21,311 nucleotides of DNA from Synura sp. LO234KE (lineage: Eukaryota; Sar; Synurophyceae; Synurales; Mallomonadaceae): contig VKHC01000063.1 in NCBI GenBank assembly GCA_015143735.1, positions 1 to 21,311 on the forward strand. Reading direction: 5' to 3'. Within the stretch, counting starts at the first letter, position 1; every line of letters begins with the position of its first letter. Positions 2,154-15,193 of the stretch are shown piece by piece. Made by a program: the position numbers and the translations under genes. A model generated the notes under the pieces. The model was given only the letters and a program-made list of their open reading frames with translations. It made no database searches and was not told the DNA's origin.

Positions 2154-4331
2154 TCAAACTAATTGTATACCGCAGCTCGCCAGTGTACGAGATAAGAACG
2201 GATTAGTATCATGATTACCTACACCCAAGTTTTGTAAGGCATTGTTTGTGGTGCCGCTGGGATTATTCATCGTTGTCTGGCGGTTGGGAGGTTCGGGAGA
2301 CACTTTCTCCGCGCCTCGAACCCAAGACATGATTCCTTTCGTCGACTTTACCCCGTGGCTCTTCCCCAATACAAGAGCAGGAGATGTCTCCTGAGGTGAT
2401 CGTGGCCGCTCCTCTTTGTCCTTATTCGATGGTGACGTGCAAGAAGAGGCACCTGCTATGGTACTCGTGCTTTCTCCTACGCCACGGGACTCGTTTCTCC
2501 GCTCAAAATTGCGTTGTAATTCCGCTGGAGTTCCGGTATACTCCCGTAGAAGCATAGGTAGATTTCTTCTGTTGCAGAGCTCTAATTCTTGATTCCGACT
2601 GCTGCTGGAATGAGAAGCGATTCTGGGAGCTACGACGTGGAAGAATACTGGACACTGGATGGACGTGGGGTGAATCACTTTGAGAGCAGCAGTGAGTGTT
2701 CCTTCGAAAGGCGATCGTGTGCAAAGCTGTAATTTCGTCCTCAGAATCACTTCAATCGAAGCGATGATATTCTGATACAGAGAAGGTGCCGTAAAGGTGA
2801 CCGTTACTCTTGTTTTGAGACCGGGAGCAAAGCTGCGTGGGAAGGCGGAAACGGTCACGTGGTTGCTCCGGAAGTCTTTTGTCACCACGTCGACTTCAAC
2901 TTCGTGCGTGGCAGTGTTGATGATTTCCACGAAGATGATCTGTTTTGAACCTTGCGGTACCTGTCCAAGGTCAAGAAAGGGGCCATCGGAGTAGATCGAT
3001 TTGTTATGAATGGAAGGAGTGATTCCAGCACCAATCACTACTTTAGAGTATTTATTGAATGCGTTTGTTAGTGTAGGATCGAACGCAGCGAGCGCTTCTT
3101 CTTGCGCTTTGCTGATATATGCGCCAGGAACATCTACAATTCTTCTTAGACTTGCTTGTGGATCTTCAGTATTCAGATGATTCGTATTCGTGGTGTTGTT
3201 CTTAGTCCCTGAGGCTAAGGGTGGGTGGAGCAATTGCCGGCGGGAATCTGTCTTTGTGAAAGGCATAGAGATGCTCGCGAGTCGATTCGGTTTCTTGTTA
3301 TTCTCTGGATCGATCGACTTTCTTAGGGCTGTTATGATTCGCAGAGCTTGCTTGTCGCGATTGTATTCGGGTACATCGGAATCCATGGCGTTGACTAATG
3401 TGTTTCCTTGCAATATCAACGTATCTTCTTCAACCACATCTTTATCTTTTGAATCGTTTTTGAAAATTATACCCATCTCATTTTTTTCTAGCGACTCGTA
3501 GGAGAGGCCTGGCATGAGACCGGTTGAAGATTGTAAGTAGCCATTGGTTCCCGCCAAACTCTCATTGATTTCTGTCGCAAGTAATCGCGACATTCGACGA
3601 CCGCGGAGATCCTGTCGAAGCTCTGAATTCATTTTTTTATTCTTTTCGCCTTTAGAGCGGAAGTTGTAGCGAGCAGAAGCTCGAGCGCCAGTTGTTTGAA
3701 TCAAATTCTTTATTTCATGTTCATCTTCCAAATTTAAGTATTGAACTAATGACTCGACCATGACCGATGCGTCCGGATCAATTCTACGAGTTTTCTGTAT
3801 AAGGATTCTCATGCCAGGCTTATTGTACGCAAATATAGCGAGTCGAGCTAGGAACTCTTTGAAGTTCTCGTAGTCTAGTGCATTAAGCCCAGACTGTCCT
3901 TTTCGAACTCTTTGTACATTCAAAACTTTCCACAAGAATTTCAACTCTTCTTTCGTTAAAAGTCTGGGAATAATTCTAAAATCTCTACAAAATACCAATA
4001 ACTCGAAGAAAGACATTGACTCGTTCGCAGCTTTTATTTGGTCATATGTTAATGAGTTCATGGAAAGCTGATCAACTGGGGATTGGAACTTAGCATAAAA
4101 ATCAAAAATTAACCGCAAGCTACTGTTTTCTTCAATCGCTTTATGCGTCACTGCGCGCGGTCCATTTGACAACTTAACTAGAATTTGAGTTCCACTCAAG
4201 TCATTCAGAGAAGTATTCGCTAACTCTAAAAATCTTCTGTATATTTCTCTGTCCAGTAATTCTATATTTTTCGAGAAATCTATGAGTGATCCTAGAAGCT
4301 CTGGGCGCGTAACAATCGACTCCGACGGCAT
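2154..4331 (-). CDS. ASH-domain protein with EF-hand-like N-terminus, cilium-type
   Basis: Uninterrupted 725-codon frame. Residues about 60-175 are helical and resemble the EF-hand-like folds common in ciliary and cytoskeletal proteins of protists: a core at 107-139 (FFELLVFCRDFRIIPRLL onward) followed at 152-169 by the LDYENFKEFLARLAIFAY helix; canonical calcium-loop acids are not evident, so calcium binding is doubtful. Residues 220-410 are charged and low in complexity. Residues about 450-567 read as a beta-sandwich of the ASH/MSP type (FLDLGQVPQGSKQIIFVEI, then an F-PG turn and a TVTF strand), the domain that targets proteins to cilia, centrosomes or related sites. The last 150 residues are Ser/Pro-rich and disordered. 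The ATG at 4331 is chosen because it is the first in the frame and lies 147 bases from the divergent transporter start. I do not recognise the specific family member; a ciliary role is inferred from the domain pair. Confidence 0.8.
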   Translation of the reverse strand: MPSESIVTRPELLGSLIDFSKNIELLDREIYRRFLELANTSLNDLSGTQILVKLSNGPRAVTHKAIEENSSLRLIFDFYAKFQSPVDQLSMNSLTYDQIKAANESMSFFELLVFCRDFRIIPRLLTKEELKFLWKVLNVQRVRKGQSGLNALDYENFKEFLARLAIFAYNKPGMRILIQKTRRIDPDASVMVESLVQYLNLEDEHEIKNLIQTTGARASARYNFRSKGEKNKKMNSELRQDLRGRRMSRLLATEINESLAGTNGYLQSSTGLMPGLSYESLEKNEMGIIFKNDSKDKDVVEEDTLILQGNTLVNAMDSDVPEYNRDKQALRIITALRKSIDPENNKKPNRLASISMPFTKTDSRRQLLHPPLASGTKNNTTNTNHLNTEDPQASLRRIVDVPGAYISKAQEEALAAFDPTLTNAFNKYSKVVIGAGITPSIHNKSIYSDGPFLDLGQVPQGSKQIIFVEIINTATHEVEVDVVTKDFRSNHVTVSAFPRSFAPGLKTRVTVTFTAPSLYQNIIASIEVILRTKLQLCTRSPFEGTLTAALKVIHPTSIQCPVFFHVVAPRIASHSSSSRNQELELCNRRNLPMLLREYTGTPAELQRNFERRNESRGVGESTSTIAGASSCTSPSNKDKEERPRSPQETSPALVLGKSHGVKSTKGIMSWVRGAEKVSPEPPNRQTTMNNPSGTTNNALQNLGVGNHDTNPFLSRTLASCGIQLV

Positions 4332-4478
4332 GCAGTTTTTATTAATTGTGCAACGGAAAACGAAGTCAGTACACGTGTGGTGTATGAAAAATTACATGGA
4401 AAAAGCAACAGACTGTTTTCAGAAATACACACGTCATTCATTACTTCGGCTTGTGTTGTTTTGTAAGAAATAAAACAG
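4332..4478. promoter_or_regulatory. Shared divergent promoter region (147 bases)
   Basis: This gap separates the start codons of the minus-strand ASH-domain gene and the plus-strand ABCG gene, so both promoters and 5' UTRs must fit in it or overlap the coding regions. It is AT-rich. No TATA-like or other element could be assigned confidently. Confidence 0.5.
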
Positions 4479-6829
4479 ATGAAGCAGCAAAGGGCTCTTT
4501 CACAAAGGGTTGCAGATGAGAAAGTTTCGATGGAGTGGAGAGATGTTAAATTTTCCACTTATGTTAAGGATCCTAAAAATTCGAAATTTATGAAGACTGC
4601 GTACTCAAAGCGCTGTATACTCAACGGTCTTAGTGGGACAGCGAAATCAGGAGAGTTAATAGCCATTATGGGACCTACTGGATCGGGTAAAACCTCATTT
4701 TTGAATGCTCTGGCAGCAAGGTTTCCAGATGGTGGATCCAAGTTTTTCAACCTTAGCGGATCCTTTATTGTGAATGGAAAACCAAGAAATGATGATTTTT
4801 TCCGACGCATTTCTGCTTTCGTAACTCAAGTAAGGATAGATTTAGATTCGCTTTTTCTTTTTATATTTCCACTTGTAGGATGACCTCATGTACCCGCACC
4901 TAACCGTCCAAGAAACTTTGCTACTTGCGTCGAATTTCTATACTCGCTCCAGCGAATCAAGAGAAAACAAGCTTCGCGTGGTTAATAATGTTATAGCAGA
5001 ACTTGGTTTGACCAAAGCGGCAAATACAATCATTGGGAGCGCGAGCTTACGTGGTGTATCTGGAGGGGAGAGGAAACGAACGGCAATAGCTGTGCAGCTT
5101 ATCACAGATCCCGCTGTGCTATTCTTGGATGAACCAACTAGCGGTCTGGACTCGTTTCAAGCCCAGAGTGTGATGGAATCCATGAAAGAACTCGCAATGT
5201 CAGGAAGATTGGTTGTGTCAGTTATTCATCAGCCTCGCTCGTCGATCTTTGCGATGTTTGATCAGCTCCTACTTCTCTCAGAAGGATATACTATGTACTA
5301 TGGACCTTCTGGAAATGCTGTGACCTATTTTTCTGCGTTAGGCTATACAAACCCAGATTTATATAACCCTGCAGATTACTTCTTAGATATCTTATCTATG
5401 GATGTGCGATCGAAAGAGAGAGAAGAAACTACCCGTAACCGTATAAATGATTTTGCGCAGTTGTGGCTAAAGAAATCTGCGGACGATGAAGCAAATGGTG
5501 TGAAATTCATTCATTTCGATAATGAGATTCAGCCAATTAGTGTGGAAAGGTCATTGACGAAATCGATTCAAAACTTTTTCTCTCTCTCTTGGCGTTCTTT
5601 TACTGAAATGAAGCGGGACAAGCCTCTTATCATGGTAAAAATAATGGGCACATTAATGCAAGGATTCGTTCTTGGTGGTGTGTACTCTGAGAGTGGCCAC
5701 GGACAAGTCGCTATTGAAAACAAGATAGGGCTATTGTACACGAACGTGCTCAACCAATCGTTCTTAGCGCTGAACGGCGTACTCAATGTTTTCCCGAAAG
5801 AAAGAATCATCATGAACAGGTAAATTATTGACTTATACTTATCCGGTGGACTGCCTGTTTCCTCCTGTTATAACTATACGAGTTCAACGTGGTTGGGCGC
5901 TTCCTTCTGTGTAAATTTCAATTCGCAAGGACCTCTGAATAGATAGATTCAAGCATTTCCTTACTTGTTTTTCAAATTACGTGTGAACACTGTCCGCATT
6001 CTGTTCATAGAGAGCGGGCTGCTTACGCCTACGACACAGCCACCTACATGCTGGCGAAGTTCTTTACTGAGATCCCCATGATGGTCACTCCTCCCATGGT
6101 CTTCAATTGCATCATGTATTGGTTAGCCGGGCTCAATCCCAAAGGCGACCGTTTCGTCATCGGTACACTCGTTATGATGCTCATGGCGATGGGCGCCGGG
6201 TCCCTAGGATTTGTGGTGGGCTCCATTACTAGTGGGGAGGGAGCCGCAGCGTTAGGTCCTGCGCTAAATATCATTTGCGCGTTGTTCGCAGGATTCTTTA
6301 TGTACGTGTTCGAACAATATATCCCTATATTGATAAGCGTTCGAATCACGGACTCCTTTTTTGTTTCATGTATGAATGTGGTTCAGTAATTTGGGCTCCT
6401 TGCCAATAGTCGCGAACTGGATTCCCTACGTGTCGTTTATAAAATGGGCTGTGGAGGCCTTGTATATCAATGAATTCAAAGGCCAGCATTTCAAATGCGA
6501 CTCTTACCCATGCATTAGCTCAGGTTAGTCACACGATACTACTTCGTGATTCAAATACAATGATAAAATCACTCCTATTATATTTAGGTGATGCGGTGTT
6601 GCAGAGCTTCTCGTATGGTAAAGATACTGTAGGCAGCGCGGTGATTGGGCTCGCCGTCGTCAGTTGCGGATACCTTCTTCTCTCCTATATGTTTCTCGTG
6701 ATTGGTCGCGTACGCTACGTTCCGATGGGGCATGTAGGCTCTATGGTGGAAAAGATTGAGAAAAAGTTCCCGACAGGAATGTCTTTGACTGAAGTTGCGG
6801 CGAAGTCAGAGGAGAAGAATGGAAATTGA
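4479..6829 (+). CDS. ABCG-family (White/WBC) half-transporter, five exons
   Basis: Joining exons 4479-4829, 4879-5819, 6011-6301, 6387-6523 and 6588-6829 gives 654 codons (653 residues), a normal length for an ABCG half-transporter. Introns are 49, 191, 85 and 64 bases with donors GTAAGG, GTAAAT, GTACGT and GTTAGT and matching phases, and the joins restore family motifs (FVTQ|DDLMYPHLTV; MNR|ERAAYAYD; FF|INLGSLP; ISS|GDAVLQ). The nucleotide-binding domain comes first: Walker A GPTGSGKT at 65-72, signature VSGGE at 177-181, Walker B/D-loop LFLDEPTSGLD at 198-208, switch histidine 234. The NPADYFLDI motif follows, then a membrane domain of about six helices ending near residue 635. All catalytic residues are present, so it should be an active ATP-driven exporter after dimerisation. 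ABCG members carry lipids, sterols and hydrophobic compounds; the substrate here cannot be told. Confidence 0.93.
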
Positions 6830-7710: not shown

Positions 7711-10700
7711 TTATTCTTCCTGGGAACACTTGTCTACATTTTGATTTGATGGCGAAGACGATCCGCTGATTCCAAAAACAAACGCCTCCACACAGTTCGC
7801 AAGCGAATGCGCTTGTTTACTTACTTCGTATCCACCTTCCAAGACTGCCACCAGCCTACCATTACACAACGTATTGGCCTCATTTCGGAGGCACTCGCCC
7901 ATCCACAAGTAGTCCTCGCTCTTCAACCCTAACGGACTTCCCAGCGGGTCCGAGATCGCCCCATCGAATCCTGCACTGACAAAGATGATATCCGGGCAGA
8001 ACTTACGCATGGCCGGAATGACTTGTTCTTCTAATGCACTTAGAAAACCTAGTCGACCACGTTTGACGTCGCGATTGTAACCGGAATGGGTCGATCGAAC
8101 GACCGGGAAGACGTTGACGATAACGGTATTTTCTGTTTGTCTGTCTACACCAAGGGTACAGCATTCAGAAGAAGGAAAGAAATATTTCGGAGGGTCGCAC
8201 TGTAGGTGTACGCTTGCATAGAACGCGTCCGGATCTCCTTCGAGAATCTCGGCCGTACCATTTCCATAGTGCGCATCGATGTCAATGACCGCATACTTCT
8301 TAAACCCGTACTTGATTCGAGAGTATACAGCCCCGATGGCCACGTTGTTCAACAAACAGAAACCGTTCTGAGGACAACCCAACGTGTTTCCGTATCGTCC
8401 GGCGTGATGACCTGGCGGGCGAATACAACAAAACACGTTGTAGATCTTATCGAAATTCAACGCGTGGATCGTTTGGTCCACAGCTTTCCCAGAAGTAACA
8501 GACTCTCCAGGAGACACGGACTCGAGCTTGAAAGAGGGATCGTTATCGTCTCGAGAATGCGCCCACCCTCCCACATCTCCCATCGCCATAGCGTCCACCG
8601 CGCGACAAACGACGTAGACGGCGCTAAGGGCAGCTCGCAGAGAGTTTGCGCAAACAAAGGTATCCGCGAACCCGCAGTCCAGCTCCTCCCACCAACCAAT
8701 TCCACTCATGACCACGTCATCGTTGTTCTGAAGAGCCAAGGAGTTCGAGCGGTTATAACCCTTCTGTTTCTTTTTCCCTTTCCCCTCTCGGAATAGCTTG
8801 ATAGTAAAATCATCAGAGGTCATGCAGTACCACGTTGGAGATTCGTCCACATTCACGTCCTGGTCGGGCACGTCTTCGTCCACCTGAGGCTCAAGATTCC
8901 TTGGACTGGACTTCATCTGCATTTCTTCTTCAACCTCCGCGATCATATCTGCACGTTCGACCAGCGAAGCATGCACTGCTTCTCCTACATCTTCCTCTTG
9001 ATCCTCGCTCATTCCGCTATGAAACAATTTAATGCGTTTAGCAGATATAACGGTGGATTCCTCTGCACCGACATTTCCTTCGGTTACAGGATCGGCATCA
9101 GTAGTGGCCAAGATAACTTGATTACCCCACACTCCAGTCACGGAATTCTCAACAACCACTTGAGGGATCGACTCTTCTACACGTACTTCCATCTGCACCT
9201 CACCTGGTCCACGGACAGTCGCAATCGATTCCGCGACTATCGAAGTTATTTCTTCGCTGATGGTCGTTTCATCGCGAGAAGTTCCATCACTCATCTTCCT
9301 CTTATGACCACTGCCACCCTTCCTCTTCTCCGACGAGGATTCCAGCGTCCCTGTCTCCTCCACCTCCATATTGACTTCCACGCCATGAACTGATGCCGGC
9401 TTAACCGTCTGTTCTGAAGGTGCAGTGGTGACCGCATAGCTGCTCGAGTCCAGTACAATAGTAGACGAAGCACTTGCTTCATCAGCCACAATGGCCAATA
9501 CGTTTAACTCACTTTCCGCCTCCATTGGAGTGTCAATCAGTCGAGAATCGAAAGCACCTTCCACACCACCAATCTTACTCTCAACCTTACTCTCATCGCC
9601 AGGCGCAGAATTAGACTCCTCCTTCGGAATCGCACGGACTTTACCAGTCCCTCCCTCACTACCCCTCTTCCCTTGCTCCGCTAACGGTAACAGTGATTCC
9701 TTGAAGATCACGTATTCTGGATTCCTGGCTAGGAATTTCATTATACCTTTTTTGTAGGGTGCATACCGCCCACATAATTTAGTCTTGGTAACAGTGTTCC
9801 AAAGATTGACACGCTGAGAGCTGATTAAGGTCGACAGAATATTTCTATCCTCCTCACTTAGACCTACCATATCTATATCCTGCTTCTTTTTCTCCTGTAA
9901 AACGATTTCCTTTTGAACAGTTTCCTTACTAACTTTACCTTTTCTCTTCACTGGAGAATCGGGTGCCAAGACAATTGTTTTATGGTACAATTCGGACATG
10001 TCATCGAAATCGGTACCACGATATTTACTCGTCCACAGCTGAAAGTTTGCATGTTTCGATACTTCTCTGATCCATTTCAGAACATTGAGGTGTTCCTCCG
10101 GCATCCCATCTCCTCTGGAATCCTGACCTTGATAGAGAGAAAAGCAAGTCGATCTAGTAAAGCACTGCCTTAGATTCCGGAGATAGGGCGCTCCATTGCC
10201 TGTTAATCTTCTACCCTTGCTACTGTCCCATACCCAAACATGCGTGGTGGGCTCGGGCAAATAGTCTGGATCAAGCTCGTCGTCATCGTCCACATCGCGC
10301 TCTTTAAACAACAAATCCACGATCGACTGGGGTAATCCAATAGTATGCATAGGAATGTCGACCGCAGGAGGACCGTCCTGTGGCGTAGGTATGAGACCGT
10401 TATCGTTGGAGAGCAGCGCATGATCGAGTTTGTCACCCTCGCTATATTCCAAACCACCATTCTTTCCCTTATCATTTGGGTTCGACGGCTGCCCGGAATT
10501 CCGAGTGATTCGTGTCCTTTCGTTTCCCGCAGTATTTATAATATCAGGCTTACGATGGCTATCAACTTTCGCAGATTGCCAATAGGATGTTTTCAGAGTG
10601 ACGTCATTTATTATATCTGGGAACTCCAGTTCATCATCAGACTCCGCGATCACAGGAGCATCTTTCAATGGCACGTGCGGCTGGAATTCCTCCACGGCAG

Positions 10701-13700
10701 CTTTCTGAGACAGCGTGCTTAAGTATTTTACGTAGTCTAAGGAGTGGACTAGCGAAATGCTTTCCCAGAACCCGCTCGGTAACGCTGCATCGCTAAAGTT
10801 CAATTCAAAACACATTACAGGAGCATATTCGAATGATTTGTTTGTATGCACTGCACTCGTTCCCGGTGAGTTGGAAGTCGGAGAAGAATTTCGATGACTT
10901 TTGTTATTGACAGCTGCAACGCTTGTGCGCTCCACACCGATGGAAGAGTCCTTCGAAGTCAGATTCCCAATCTCCGCATCCGCTTCCATTACAATTTCAG
11001 TCTCGAAGACCGCCTTCTCATCCGTAGTATTCGCCACAGTGCTATTGACACGCTGCCCAATAAGCGAGCGTTGAAGCTTTCTCAATTTCTTCATCGCTCT
11101 CCTTATGCGATCGGGTTTTTCCGCCATAGACTTCGGAACCTTGTGTTCTAGAACATCATTACAACAGAGTACGGCTGTAGCAAGCCGAGTGGGACGCTCT
11201 GTGGAGTCGGAGCCTCTGGGGAATGCGGAATCTCGCACGATCGGATCTTGGGTAATGTTCTCTTTATCATCAACTACTGTATTCATGGACTCCGATTTAA
11301 CCGAAGTCTGTAGAACCTCTTGAGAACTTAACAGTTTACTCTGTAATTCCGATAATTCTGAAGATAGAGATTGTACAAGACCTGGTGATCGAAATGGCTC
11401 GTTGGAATCGCCGCCGGAGTGTGTACTCGCTTTCTTGTTGGGATAAGAGTTGAGTGCGTATTGAGCGAGTATACGCCTTGCGACAGAAATACTTTCGTAG
11501 GCTACGACGACACTTTGTTCCGGAGACAAATGCGCTACAAGCTCCACTTCCGTGCGAGGAAAATAAGACTTCTGCATACGAAGACTCGAGTTTTGGTCTC
11601 TATCCTTCCTCTCCATCCCTACTTTGCCTCTGAGCGCAGGATCAATCTCGATAGACATTCGATTTTCCGTTAAACTTCGATGTACGAAACTTAACAGATT
11701 CGCGACTTCCGACATAACGGCACTCTCTGACCCAGTTCGGTGCCATTCCCCAGTGTTAATCTCAGGTTTGCTATCCTCACCCAACTCTACAGATTTACAC
11801 ATCCGTTGCTCCAGACCAATAACAAAAGCATGAAAGTAATCCAGCGCACGTCGATTTGCCTGTACTTTCTCAACCATATCTTTACAAGCCTCTATCTCTT
11901 TCCCAAGGTAATTTCGTCGCAACTTCTCCGACAGCCGCAACCGTTTAAACCGGTCTTTCTGCTCTGTTAGCTTCGCACGTTTCTCGTCAATTTGATGCTG
12001 GAGAGCCTTTAATTGGGCCGCTAAGCATCTCTCCTTGACTTCTAATTCTGTTAAACCCTTGCTTTCCATAAGTTCAACAGCCCTTCTCTTCCCTTCCGAC
12101 AAACGAACTTCCTCGTCATGCTCCGTTAATTTTTTATTTAGAAGTTTCTCGGATTGAGAATAGAAATCCAAACGCTTGTTTTCTTTCACTAAACGTGTGC
12201 GGCACACCGTGAGAGCCTGGTGGATCAGGGATAGTGATTGAGAAATGCTGTCTGTGGCTTGAAGCATAGTCAGAGAACGTGCTGGGAATGTGGCCACCGC
12301 CTGGGAGACCTGCGGCGGGACAGACTCATCACTACGTCCCAGTTCTCCAGCTATTTCCGACAGTACTCCTCTCATCTGGAACACTTTACTTCGAAAACCG
12401 TCCAAGGTACTTGGCATCATTCTAAATCGAAGGAAATCCACCTGTGCAACAACGGGTAACAAACAAAGAAACAAACAATCCGAGAACATTTTCGTGATTA
12501 TTACAAGTATAAAGTCGAGTTGAAGTGTAAACTACGTCCATCGAAGTCATGACATGAACGGAGGGGGTGGGGGTGGAGGCACAGTACGTCCTCGCCTACA
12601 ATCCAATCGTGACCTTAAGTCCCATAAGTTGACCGACGGACAATAAGGAAGCCGTTTCAACAAACCTCATGGCTCTGCAGTGCTCCGACGCCTTCCTCTT
12701 CTAGCTTTTTCTTGATCGGGTCCAGCAAGCGCTGTAAATGAAGCACGACATCGTTGGGATCGTCTGACACTGCATTTCCAGTGCTCCACGCGGTGGACCC
12801 AGGTAACACAGACGCTGCAGCATGATCTACCGCATCCCCTCCATTTTGATCCATGCTTCCATGGGAACTGCATTTTGCACAGAAGAATTCGTATTCTTGT
12901 ATCCAAGCACGAACAAGCTTCTCTTTCTCTTCATCGTCCAGTTCGCCATTCGACTCATAATCGCTCCAACTATCCGATCTCTCGGTGGGGTCTGGATCCT
13001 GGCTATCTACGCTAGCACCCGAATCCCACATTTTCCGACTGTGTAGAGTAAGTGGATTTGAACGGTTTCTAGAACCCACGTTATCCCCGCTGCCACCACT
13101 ATGGTTTCTCGATTCGGAATTATGATTTCGAGTCTGCAGACTGTCCCGATCATCCACAGCAGCTTGAGGCGAATCAAAATTCATTTCACTGTTTGCACTA
13201 GAATCGTTTGGTTTTAAGTTTTCGTCGCTCGAGCTTGTTTCGGTCGCATCTGTATTGGTTTCAGTACGACCATTTCGGTTTGGAAGCGTACCCTCAGTAT
13301 GGAATGTTGCATACGTTGCTTTCGGCTTCCGATTTCCTTGCTCAATAGCTTCTAAAATATCCTCGCTTATATCTAGATAATGCTTGTCAGTATGTTCCTT
13401 ATCATTCCAGTTAGGCTCTGTATGCCGCTTCTCGCACCGGCACCTCCGGGTACCTAGCAGAGGAAGGAGCAAAGGGTAGTGAAACTAGTCATGTCAGGAG
13501 AACGTGAATGAATTTATTGGATTTTTTTCACGAGAGGCATGATGGGAAGAAAACTCGCACCGGTATTGTTTTTATGACATTTCTTGCATGCTTTCACATC
13601 TTGGATGCTTAAGACTGGAATAGCCAAGCACTCCTCCCCTTCTTCCACACCAGATGAAAGTTGTTCCATGCGTCTTTTGATAGCTATATTTCACGGCGAA

Positions 13701-14190
13701 ATGAGGCCCGACAATAATGTATCAATAAACAGTTTTAGGTTCCGACGGTCAAGCGGAATATAAAAGATAAACATACTACGGAACAGACTCACCAAGTTTT
13801 TTATCCCTTTGCTCTTCATATCTATAAAAAAAAGAAGCGGTAAGCTTAAGATAAACCGTTTAAAACGTAATCTTACTTTTGAAGTCGATTCTGACAAATA
13901 GTCTGCTTCACCAGTTTCCGAACAGCGTCATAAGAGGACACTTCCTTAATATCATCATCACAATCTAATTCTAGGAAAGGTTTCCCATTATTGTCCACAA
14001 TTCGGACGACAGTGGCCCCAACCATTTCATTATGCCCCGCGTAATATTTAACTAACCTTTGCCCAATAAGCTCCTCATACTTCGCCCTCTGAGCGAATGG
14101 ACCAAAATCCTTGTATTTATTAGCTGCGCTAATGGAAGACACTGAGCTATATAGAGGTTTGTCTATTACTTCATTTTGATCGGCGTCCAT
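7711..14190 (-). CDS. Class II histone deacetylase fusion: Tudor-like, Cys cluster, coiled coil, split HDAC domain
   Basis: My model joins, on the minus strand, exons 14190-13877, 13821-13793, 13683-13561, 13453-12666 and 12441-7711: 1995 codons, 1994 residues, all phases matching (introns 55, 109, 107 and 224 bases; donors GTAAGA, GTGAGT, GTGCGA, GTTTGT; each ends in AG, two after strong pyrimidine tracts). The start at 14190 has a strong Kozak context (gccgccaacATGG). Residues about 41-94 resemble a Tudor/Agenet-type reader. C147, C150, C160 and C162 form a zinc-type cluster split by intron 3; a CAKC motif follows at 347-350. Residues about 497-627 are coiled coil. The HDAC domain opens near H984 (VHSLDYVKYLSTLS), is interrupted, resumes near D1678 (ADTFVCANS) and carries HH1763-1764, zinc ligands D1807, H1809 and D1911, and catalytic Y1956 (LEGGY), so lysine deacetylase activity is expected, probably in the nucleus. 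The least certain point is the join of exon 4 to exon 5; a separate gene starting at an internal Met of exon 5 is the alternative. Confidence 0.78.
12560..12579 (+). other. G-run cluster in HDAC intron 4, possible G-quadruplex
   Basis: The plus strand reads ggagggggtgggggtggagg, four G-runs with 1-base loops, which can form a two- or three-tier quadruplex. It lies inside the 224-base intron of the minus-strand HDAC gene, so the transcript carries the C-rich complement and the G-rich strand is the non-transcribed partner only for plus-strand transcription. The effect, if any, would be on DNA. Confidence 0.4.
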
Positions 14191-14309
14191 GTTGGCGGCG
14201 GTGGTGTGGGAGGTGTGAGGGAGAGGTAACTCTCCCCAGCCCATACTCATTACACAGTGTGCACACATCATAGCGATTCATTACGCATTACAATCTGTAT
14301 TTTTTTTTT
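14191..14309. promoter_or_regulatory. Shared divergent promoter region (119 bases)
   Basis: This separates the HDAC-fusion start codon (minus, 14190) and the methyltransferase start codon (plus, 14310). A run of nine T sits directly before the methyltransferase ATG. An in-frame upstream ATG of the HDAC gene at 14271 would shrink the gap to 38 bases; I prefer 14190 for its Kozak context. No specific element was recognised. Confidence 0.5.
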
Positions 14310-15193
14310 ATGGAATATGAGCTATCCGCTGGAACCCTTGCCGCACTCCGGGAGCATTTGAGTAAATCAACTTCGGAGCAATTGGAACCGGAGCATGAAT
14401 CTGACATAACATCCTCCAAAAGTATACCAAATTACGCTTCCAAGTCGTATTGGAATGAACGATTTGAAAAAGAGGAAAGCTATGAATGGCTACTCTCATA
14501 CGCACAAATAAGACAACATATACAAAGTTATATTGCATCCTTTTGCTCCCCTCGAATTCTTGTTGTTGGTTGTGGTAATAGCAATTTTTCATTGGAGTTG
14601 TACGAGGACGTACAAACCGCAGATATCGTAAATATAGATTTTTCTGACGTCGTTATTGAGCGTATGAAATTAGTAAGCGCTTTGCGCGCTCCGAATATGA
14701 AATGGGTGGTTATGGATATGCTGAATATTGACTTTGCGGCTGAATGCTTTGACGTAGTCATAGACAAAGCAACAATGGACGCATTGTTTACCGAGCAGAC
14801 AGATGTTTGGTCCCCTAATCTCGAGCTGATTGAAAAATGCCGCAAGATGTGCGCTGGAATAAGTAAGGTGCTTAGGCCCGGTGGTGTCTTCATCCAAATT
14901 AGTTTTGCTCAACCTCATTTCCGGACAAAATTTTTAATGAATTTCTGGAAATTTCAAAGCGAAAGTAACCCGCTCTGTTCATTTAATTTTATATATCTCA
15001 TTACTCATGTGTAGATTGTGGCCAATCCAAGTTGAATCCGGAAGCGAAGGACGAGGGGAGCCTTAACTACGACAGTTACACGAAGCCTGTCACGGGATAC
15101 TCACCAGACTATAATTGGACGCTTAAGGTTCAAGAAATTGAATTGGAAAAAGGTTGCTTCAACTATTTTGCGTACATCGCTTGGAAATCATAA
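14310..15193 (+). CDS. METTL13/EEF1AKMT4-like SAM-dependent methyltransferase, two exons
   Basis: Exons 14310-14964 and 15015-15193, split by a 50-base intron (donor GTAACC, acceptor TGTGTAG, phase 1), give 834 bases and 277 residues. Unspliced, the frame stops after 234 residues; splicing restores a conserved-looking C-terminus (YNWTLKVQEIELEKGCFNYF). The family motif YWNERF is at 48-52 and onward, the SAM-binding motif I LVVGCGNSNFSLELY at 84-98, an acidic end of the second strand at NIDFSDV (108-114), motif VVMDM at 133-137, the FDVVIDKATMDALF segment at 147-160, and the FAQPHFRTKFL signature at 199-209. In this family the amine substrate is a lysine or the N-terminus of elongation factor eEF1A; the likely role is methylation of eEF1A or another cytosolic protein. 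Length fits the single-domain EEF1AKMT4 type rather than the double-domain METTL13. Confidence 0.92.

Follow-up and report, generated by a model that had tools for sequence, protein, structure and literature searches.

The window analysed here, a 21,311-nucleotide stretch of DNA from Synura sp. LO234KE (contig VKHC01000063.1), carries on its minus strand a predicted five-exon gene for a class II-like deacetylase of 1994 amino acids (Table 1). A sequence-only reading had described the product as one chain joining a Tudor/Agenet-like N-terminus, a four-Cys cluster, a long coiled coil and a catalytically complete deacetylase. The reader-like N-terminus, the coiled coil and the chromatin-type deacetylase stood up to further analysis, but two BRK domains inside the catalytic domain had been missed. 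By computation, the catalytic domain is discontinuous with its catalytic residues intact, and the unusual trait of the protein is the nesting of BRK domains within it. Judged from titles and the beginnings of abstracts, none of the open-licence papers listed in literature searches reports a BRK deacetylase, and the word BRK is absent from two surveys (PMC10707265, PMC3145265).

A homology search scored 7979 candidates and returned 951 matches, and the relatives discussed here (numbered with the prefix P) come from the best 120 of these. Among the matches listed, P0001-P0009 carry both BRK and deacetylase marks in the Pfam annotation of the database, and P0010 the deacetylase mark only. In the window, the second part of the deacetylase domain scored 173.3 bits against PF00850 (Hist_deacetyl; curated cut-off 27.9) and contains the 'DT' of loop L2 (residues 1678-1679), HH (1763-1764), D1807/H1809, D1911 and Y1956. 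We take these to be the catalytic HH pair, the D/H/D metal ligands and the catalytic Tyr; all six catalytic residues (H1763, H1764, D1807, H1809, D1911, Y1956) form invariant columns in 11 of 11 family rows. The Pfam match and the located residues together confirm the earlier prediction of a class II-like, catalytically complete enzyme. That the protein is instead an inactive scaffold seems to us highly improbable: the metal-binding His is followed by Tyr (DAHYGNG), where ten relatives have Phe and HDAC6 has His, which might be taken as a sign of lost activity, but the window and all ten relatives retain the six catalytic residues, and the His that follows the metal-binding His of HDAC6 is no metal ligand. 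Class IIa (HDAC4-type) enzymes have a His replacing the catalytic Tyr, which is kept here in the motif LEGGY, and Pfam scans of the separate exons found a single PF00850 stretch and no PF02148 (UBP finger), so that the protein fits neither class IIa nor the HDAC6-containing class IIb.

The first part of the domain, aligned with uninterrupted deacetylases, gave an hhalign probability of 78 (E 1.8e-5, 43 columns), compared with 0.33 or less in 20 of 20 column shuffles, and the VHSxxY helix that follows is aligned in the window, P0007, P0010 and the P0001 group. Structure prediction was fed a family-only alignment, because in the whole-length alignment the distant rows were misaligned over the first domain part; the resulting model appears to contain the complete deacetylase fold, including the first strand and helices.

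An insert of about 660 residues follows the VHSxxY helix and stops some 15 residues short of the conserved 'DT' of L2. Between VHSxxY and DT the window has 694 residues, P0007 has 631, P0010 has 570 and P0001-P0006 have 1411-1435, compared with 63-79 for the four oomycete-type rows and 49 for the dictyostelid P0047 and P0058 (P0008 and P0009, whose sequences start too late, are left out of this comparison). In P0039 and P0041 these motifs are separated by 1303 and 1329 residues, a stretch that lacks BRK and shows a weak PHD-like match. The equivalent spot in the second domain of fish HDAC6 (P0022) is occupied by FNSIY, the Ser of which we take to be S531. HDAC6 S531 has been reported to bond the backbone of the substrate lysine (PMC8810773) and has been placed in loop L2 (PMC10674519). 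If the numbering holds, the end of the insert would therefore lie close to the substrate-contacting loop. There is also a second insertion point, between DT and RPPGHH (8658-8422), where the window has 82 residues, P0007, P0008 and P0010 have 50-80, and P0001-P0006 and P0009 have 278-285 (279 in P0001); all other rows measured, for example the oomycete P0029, have 39.

Copy 2 of the two predicted BRK domains is assigned as such by computation: exon 5 as a whole scored 35.7 bits against Pfam BRK, for which the cut-off is 23, and copy 2 alone scored 29.1 bits. Copy 1 is BRK-like when taken alone, and is read as BRK because it resembles the first copies in P0007 and P0001. With E values for 15 sequences, a profile built without the window sequences recovered copy 2 (5e-14) and copy 1 (0.0012); in the 10 related deacetylases given, those of oomycetes and dictyostelids among them, it picked up no copy with E ≤1. 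With the window sequences included, and among 121 proteins scanned, copies at E <0.1 occurred only in the window and its ten relatives. In both copies the predicted order of elements is strand-strand-helix-strand, with block scores in the predicted local distance difference test (pLDDT) of 59-77 for copy 2 and 39-46 for copy 1; this is the order of the BRK fold, which resembles the peptide-binding GYF domain (PMC7096718). When the family BRK profile (12 copies, two of them from the window) was compared with solved structures, 14 rows were recovered at E ≤1 (best 0.0018), in which CHD7 (three entries), CHD8 (two) and BRG1 were interspersed with unrelated proteins. The window copies share with the BRK domains of CHD7, CHD8 and BRG1 an A-P motif, the profile and the predicted order of elements. 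Known BRK hosts comprise remodelling ATPases (BRG1/BRM and the Kismet/CHD7-9 group, the latter having one or two copies) and PPS, a splicing regulator of the fly (PMC7096718), whereas here the domain lies inside a deacetylase catalytic domain and reaches eight copies in one relative. The predicted combination of BRK and deacetylase is, by computation, conserved in relatives, with two BRK copies in the window, P0007 and P0010, six in each of P0001-P0006, eight in P0008 and three in P0009. Residues 436-769 of P0008 hold five near-identical BRK-like repeats in tandem, as after recent duplication. A search with an alignment of BRK plus catalytic domain, which was insensitive in that it missed all known relatives, had as its sole match among the candidates scored P0121, a bacterial acetyltransferase-deacetylase fusion.

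A tree of 37 catalytic halves joined the window, the ten relatives, P0039, P0041, P0019 and P0057 in a starred set of 15 rows (100/96), with poorly resolved branching inside it and a long branch for P0039/P0041. The nearest named relatives of this set, at a fork that is not starred (96/64), are oomycete PHD-AP2-AP2 deacetylases (P0029 and P0074 labelled by source name, P0020 and P0027 by likeness, as was the dictyostelid P0038). The set stands apart from HDAC6, and although HDAC6 fills much of the match list, kinship with it was rejected on the basis of the tree. Some 230 residues of the catalytic half align with HDAC6 (E 5.7e-46 for its two domains summed), and HDAC6 entries score best among solved sequences, as might be expected if the substrates were non-histone, like the tubulin acted on by HDAC6, and the chromatin-type modules were protein scaffolding. 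We regard this as improbable, however, given the position of the window in the tree, its one catalytic domain and lack of a ubiquitin-binding finger, where HDAC6 has two domains and such a finger, and a stretch resembling a nuclear localisation signal (KRKGGSGHKRK) at residue 1457, inside the insert.

Oomycete deacetylases with a PHD and two AP2 domains have been described (PMC5112689). Such proteins, for example P0029 of Bremia lactucae, are likewise large, their class II-like deacetylase being preceded by chromatin-type modules, but their catalytic domain is uninterrupted (Pfam positions 1-296; 78 residues from VHSxxY to DT, as opposed to 694), P0029, P0020 and P0074 are without BRK where the window has two, and they carry PHD and AP2 in place of Tudor-like and Cys3His modules. 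Pfam found neither PHD nor AP2 in exons 1, 4 and 5, each scanned apart, or in spliced residues 1-200. The dictyostelid hdaC-type proteins P0047 and P0058 likewise show, by eye, an N-terminal zinc-finger-like region, a helical region and a single class II-like domain; unlike the window, they have no BRK and only the short spacing given above. The earlier statement that no class II deacetylase with this domain order was known is weakened by the oomycete proteins (PMC5112689) and by P0058, which its source names as FYVE-type zinc finger-containing.

The reader-like N-terminus, the coiled coil and the deacetylase recur in unchanged order in the relative P0007. The predicted Tudor/Agenet-like barrel of the sequence-only reading is only suggested as a fold, the structure model having a pLDDT of 49; Pfam gave no Tudor or Agenet match in residues 1-200 of the window or in P0007, in scans whose HMMER filters drop most matches above E 0.1. 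Three Cys of the putative four-Cys cluster are kept in P0007 and the fourth is Ile there, while C-x2-C-x9-C-x5-H is conserved, that is, Cys3His in place of four Cys; read by eye, P0010 shows C-x2-C-x8-C-x5-H. Searching the own genome for paralogues of the exon-1 module returned nothing besides itself, and with P0007 as query for further N-terminal relatives P0007 alone came back among the candidates scored. The long coiled coil held up, its heptad contrast being matched by none of 500 shuffles. A comparison with the oomycete and dictyostelid helical regions did not bring out shared ancestry (hhalign probabilities 0.05 and 1.9; shuffled or reversed controls 0.04-0.32).

The five-exon gene model, with GT-AG borders and 1994 codons plus stop, is a computed result and agrees with the earlier prediction. 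Combining nearby GT/AG sites leaves 16 splice models open (1984-2005 amino acids, two of them of 1994), and the reading frame alone therefore cannot choose between them, but alignment across the joins with P0007 and P0010 favours the model proposed earlier. Join 1-2 is crossed by the P0007 match to window residues 37-108 (44% identity, E 2e-12), which extends four residues beyond it, join 3-4 by a gap-free P0007 alignment (144-178, 54%, E 8e-9) and join 4-5 by a P0010 alignment (383-625, 21%, E 2e-6); join 2-3 follows the reading frame only. It has also to be considered whether two adjacent genes were joined by the model, one with the reader-like exons 1-4 and the other a deacetylase beginning in exon 5, since exon 5 lies within an open frame of 1606 codons having its own possible start and intron 4, at 224 bases, is the longest of the gene. 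This is scarcely credible, as both halves occur in one chain of 1850 amino acids in P0007 and P0010 is colinear over join 4-5; on this colinearity across the joins the two-gene reading was rejected. The 5550 coding bases of P0007 take up nearly all of its longest listed contig (5840 bases), which is what one expects of a transcript or of a gene without introns, and its parts therefore do share one chain.

Table 1 Features of the deacetylase gene and its predicted product, in window positions.
Feature	Residues	Positions	Strand	Remarks
Exon 1	1-104	14190-13877	minus	
Exon 2		13821-13793	minus	29 nt
Exon 3		13683-13561	minus	
Intron 3		13560-13454	minus	spanned by the region coding for the predicted zinc motif
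Exon 4	to 418	13453-12666	minus	mostly low-complexity linker
Exon 5	419-1994 plus stop	12441-7711	minus	
Tudor-like stretch	37-100	14082-13891	minus	colinear with P0007, 44%, E 2e-12; fold only suggested
Predicted zinc motif	C147-x2-C150-x9-C160-x5-H166	13588-13422	minus	54% identity to P0007; residues checked
Coiled coil	476-630	12270-11806	minus	31% identity to P0007, E 1e-18; heptad pattern
Deacetylase domain, first part (strand 1 and helix 1)	838-880	11184-11056	minus	hhalign
Deacetylase VHSxxY helix	974-1000	10776-10696	minus	alignment and whole-domain structural match
Insert in L2 region	1001-1662	10695-8710	minus	mostly disordered; borders set by hand
BRK domain 1	1153-1192	10239-10120	minus	divergent; predicted helix follows
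BRK domain 2	1296-1334	9810-9694	minus	Pfam BRK E 8.2e-7, over cut-off
Deacetylase domain, second part	1663-1985	8709-7741	minus	PF00850 positions 67-297, E 9.8e-51

Upstream of the deacetylase gene lies a plus-strand methyltransferase gene (METTL-like by eye), whose first ATG is at 14310, 119 bases from the deacetylase start, and the interval 14191-14309 is likely to be a shared divergent promoter. Pieces of an ABC transporter (ABCG-like by eye) are spread over several open frames of the plus strand at 4467-6829, which are probably exons of one gene. A protein of 745 amino acids on the minus strand (2154-4391) shows HYDIN/ASH/PapD-like Ig matches that are weak (the best, at E 0.0011, falls short of the cut-off), which suggests a cilium or flagellum protein. 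The own genome (8.09 Mb, 549 contigs) contains at least one deacetylase match and at least one BRK match, both in this gene, and at least five SNF2 matches, on two contigs; these counts are lower bounds, and the assembly may be incomplete or mixed. The same assembly includes a red-type RuBisCO large-subunit gene (L003:1426-2892) on a contig of 74 kb, which is probably plastid; we read the RuBisCO as form ID, and presume the highest-scoring solved rows to be from diatoms. The genome is likely that of a red-lineage alga.

We propose that the protein would act as a nuclear class II-type zinc deacetylase. Its Tudor-like and Cys3His modules would most likely anchor it at chromatin, perhaps by reading a mark, and the coiled coil would probably pair two chains. 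The BRK arms, as GYF-like and partner-binding modules, would most likely dock a partner or a nucleosome-bound peptide at the rim of the active site and thereby select the acetyl-lysines, putatively on histones, for removal. BRG1 BRK directly binds the zinc fingers of CTCF, as do the CHD7 and CHD8 BRK regions (PMC7728349), and partner binding by BRK is therefore experimentally backed in other proteins. A role as a rigid lid is disfavoured because the tethers are long and disordered. That BRK docking matters for substrate choice seems to us marginally probable.

The insert could also be a passive arm in a tolerated loop, recruiting the enzyme to remodelling or transcription complexes while leaving catalysis and substrate choice unaffected, an explanation that we find possible, if somewhat doubtful. 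Beyond the BRK domains the insert is mostly low-complexity (block pLDDT mostly 23-36), the BRK count varies from 2 to 8, P0039 and P0041 seemingly accept a PHD-like finger and no BRK within their roughly 1300 residues at this site, and a recruiting role for BRK, by way of transcription factors and coactivators, has been described (PMC13360762). A merely tolerated loop, however, fits poorly with the likeness, seen by eye, of BRK1, the stretch after it and the flanking short motifs in the window, P0007, P0010 and the P0001 group, and with the closeness of the insert end to the L2 'DT'.

Several points weigh against docking by BRK domains in a split deacetylase with N-terminal reader modules. The first part of the catalytic domain has no Pfam match when scanned alone, and its hhalign match is confined to the 43 columns, with the VHSxxY helix outside. 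The structure model has a mean pLDDT of 39, with 909 of 1162 residues below 50 and block values of 31-45 (model residues 1-60) and 33-53 (121-170) in the first part, and the rows of the structural alignment kept low-confidence stretches in. BRK copy 1 alone scores 16.7 bits (E 0.0058), under the Pfam cut-off, and of six proteins compared over residues 1-830 only P0007 has the Tudor-like match. Moreover, the function of BRK is called unknown in both PMC7096718 and PMC7728349.

In this family an easily assayed enzyme has BRK copies as fixed parts next to its substrate loop, which makes the question of BRK function testable. The zinc deacetylase domain tolerates 570-1435 residues between VHSxxY and DT, compared with 49-79 in the oomycete and dictyostelid relatives measured. 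A tentative and rather unlikely extension of BRK docking is that in this lineage loop L2 serves as a plug-in site, at which 2-8 BRK copies, or the PHD-like insert of P0039/P0041, are put at the active-site rim, and that a partner on the BRK array gates or selects the substrate directly. If this were true, BRK, so far mostly a module of remodellers, would read partners while hard-wired to a catalytic loop, and avidity would be tuned by BRK copy number.
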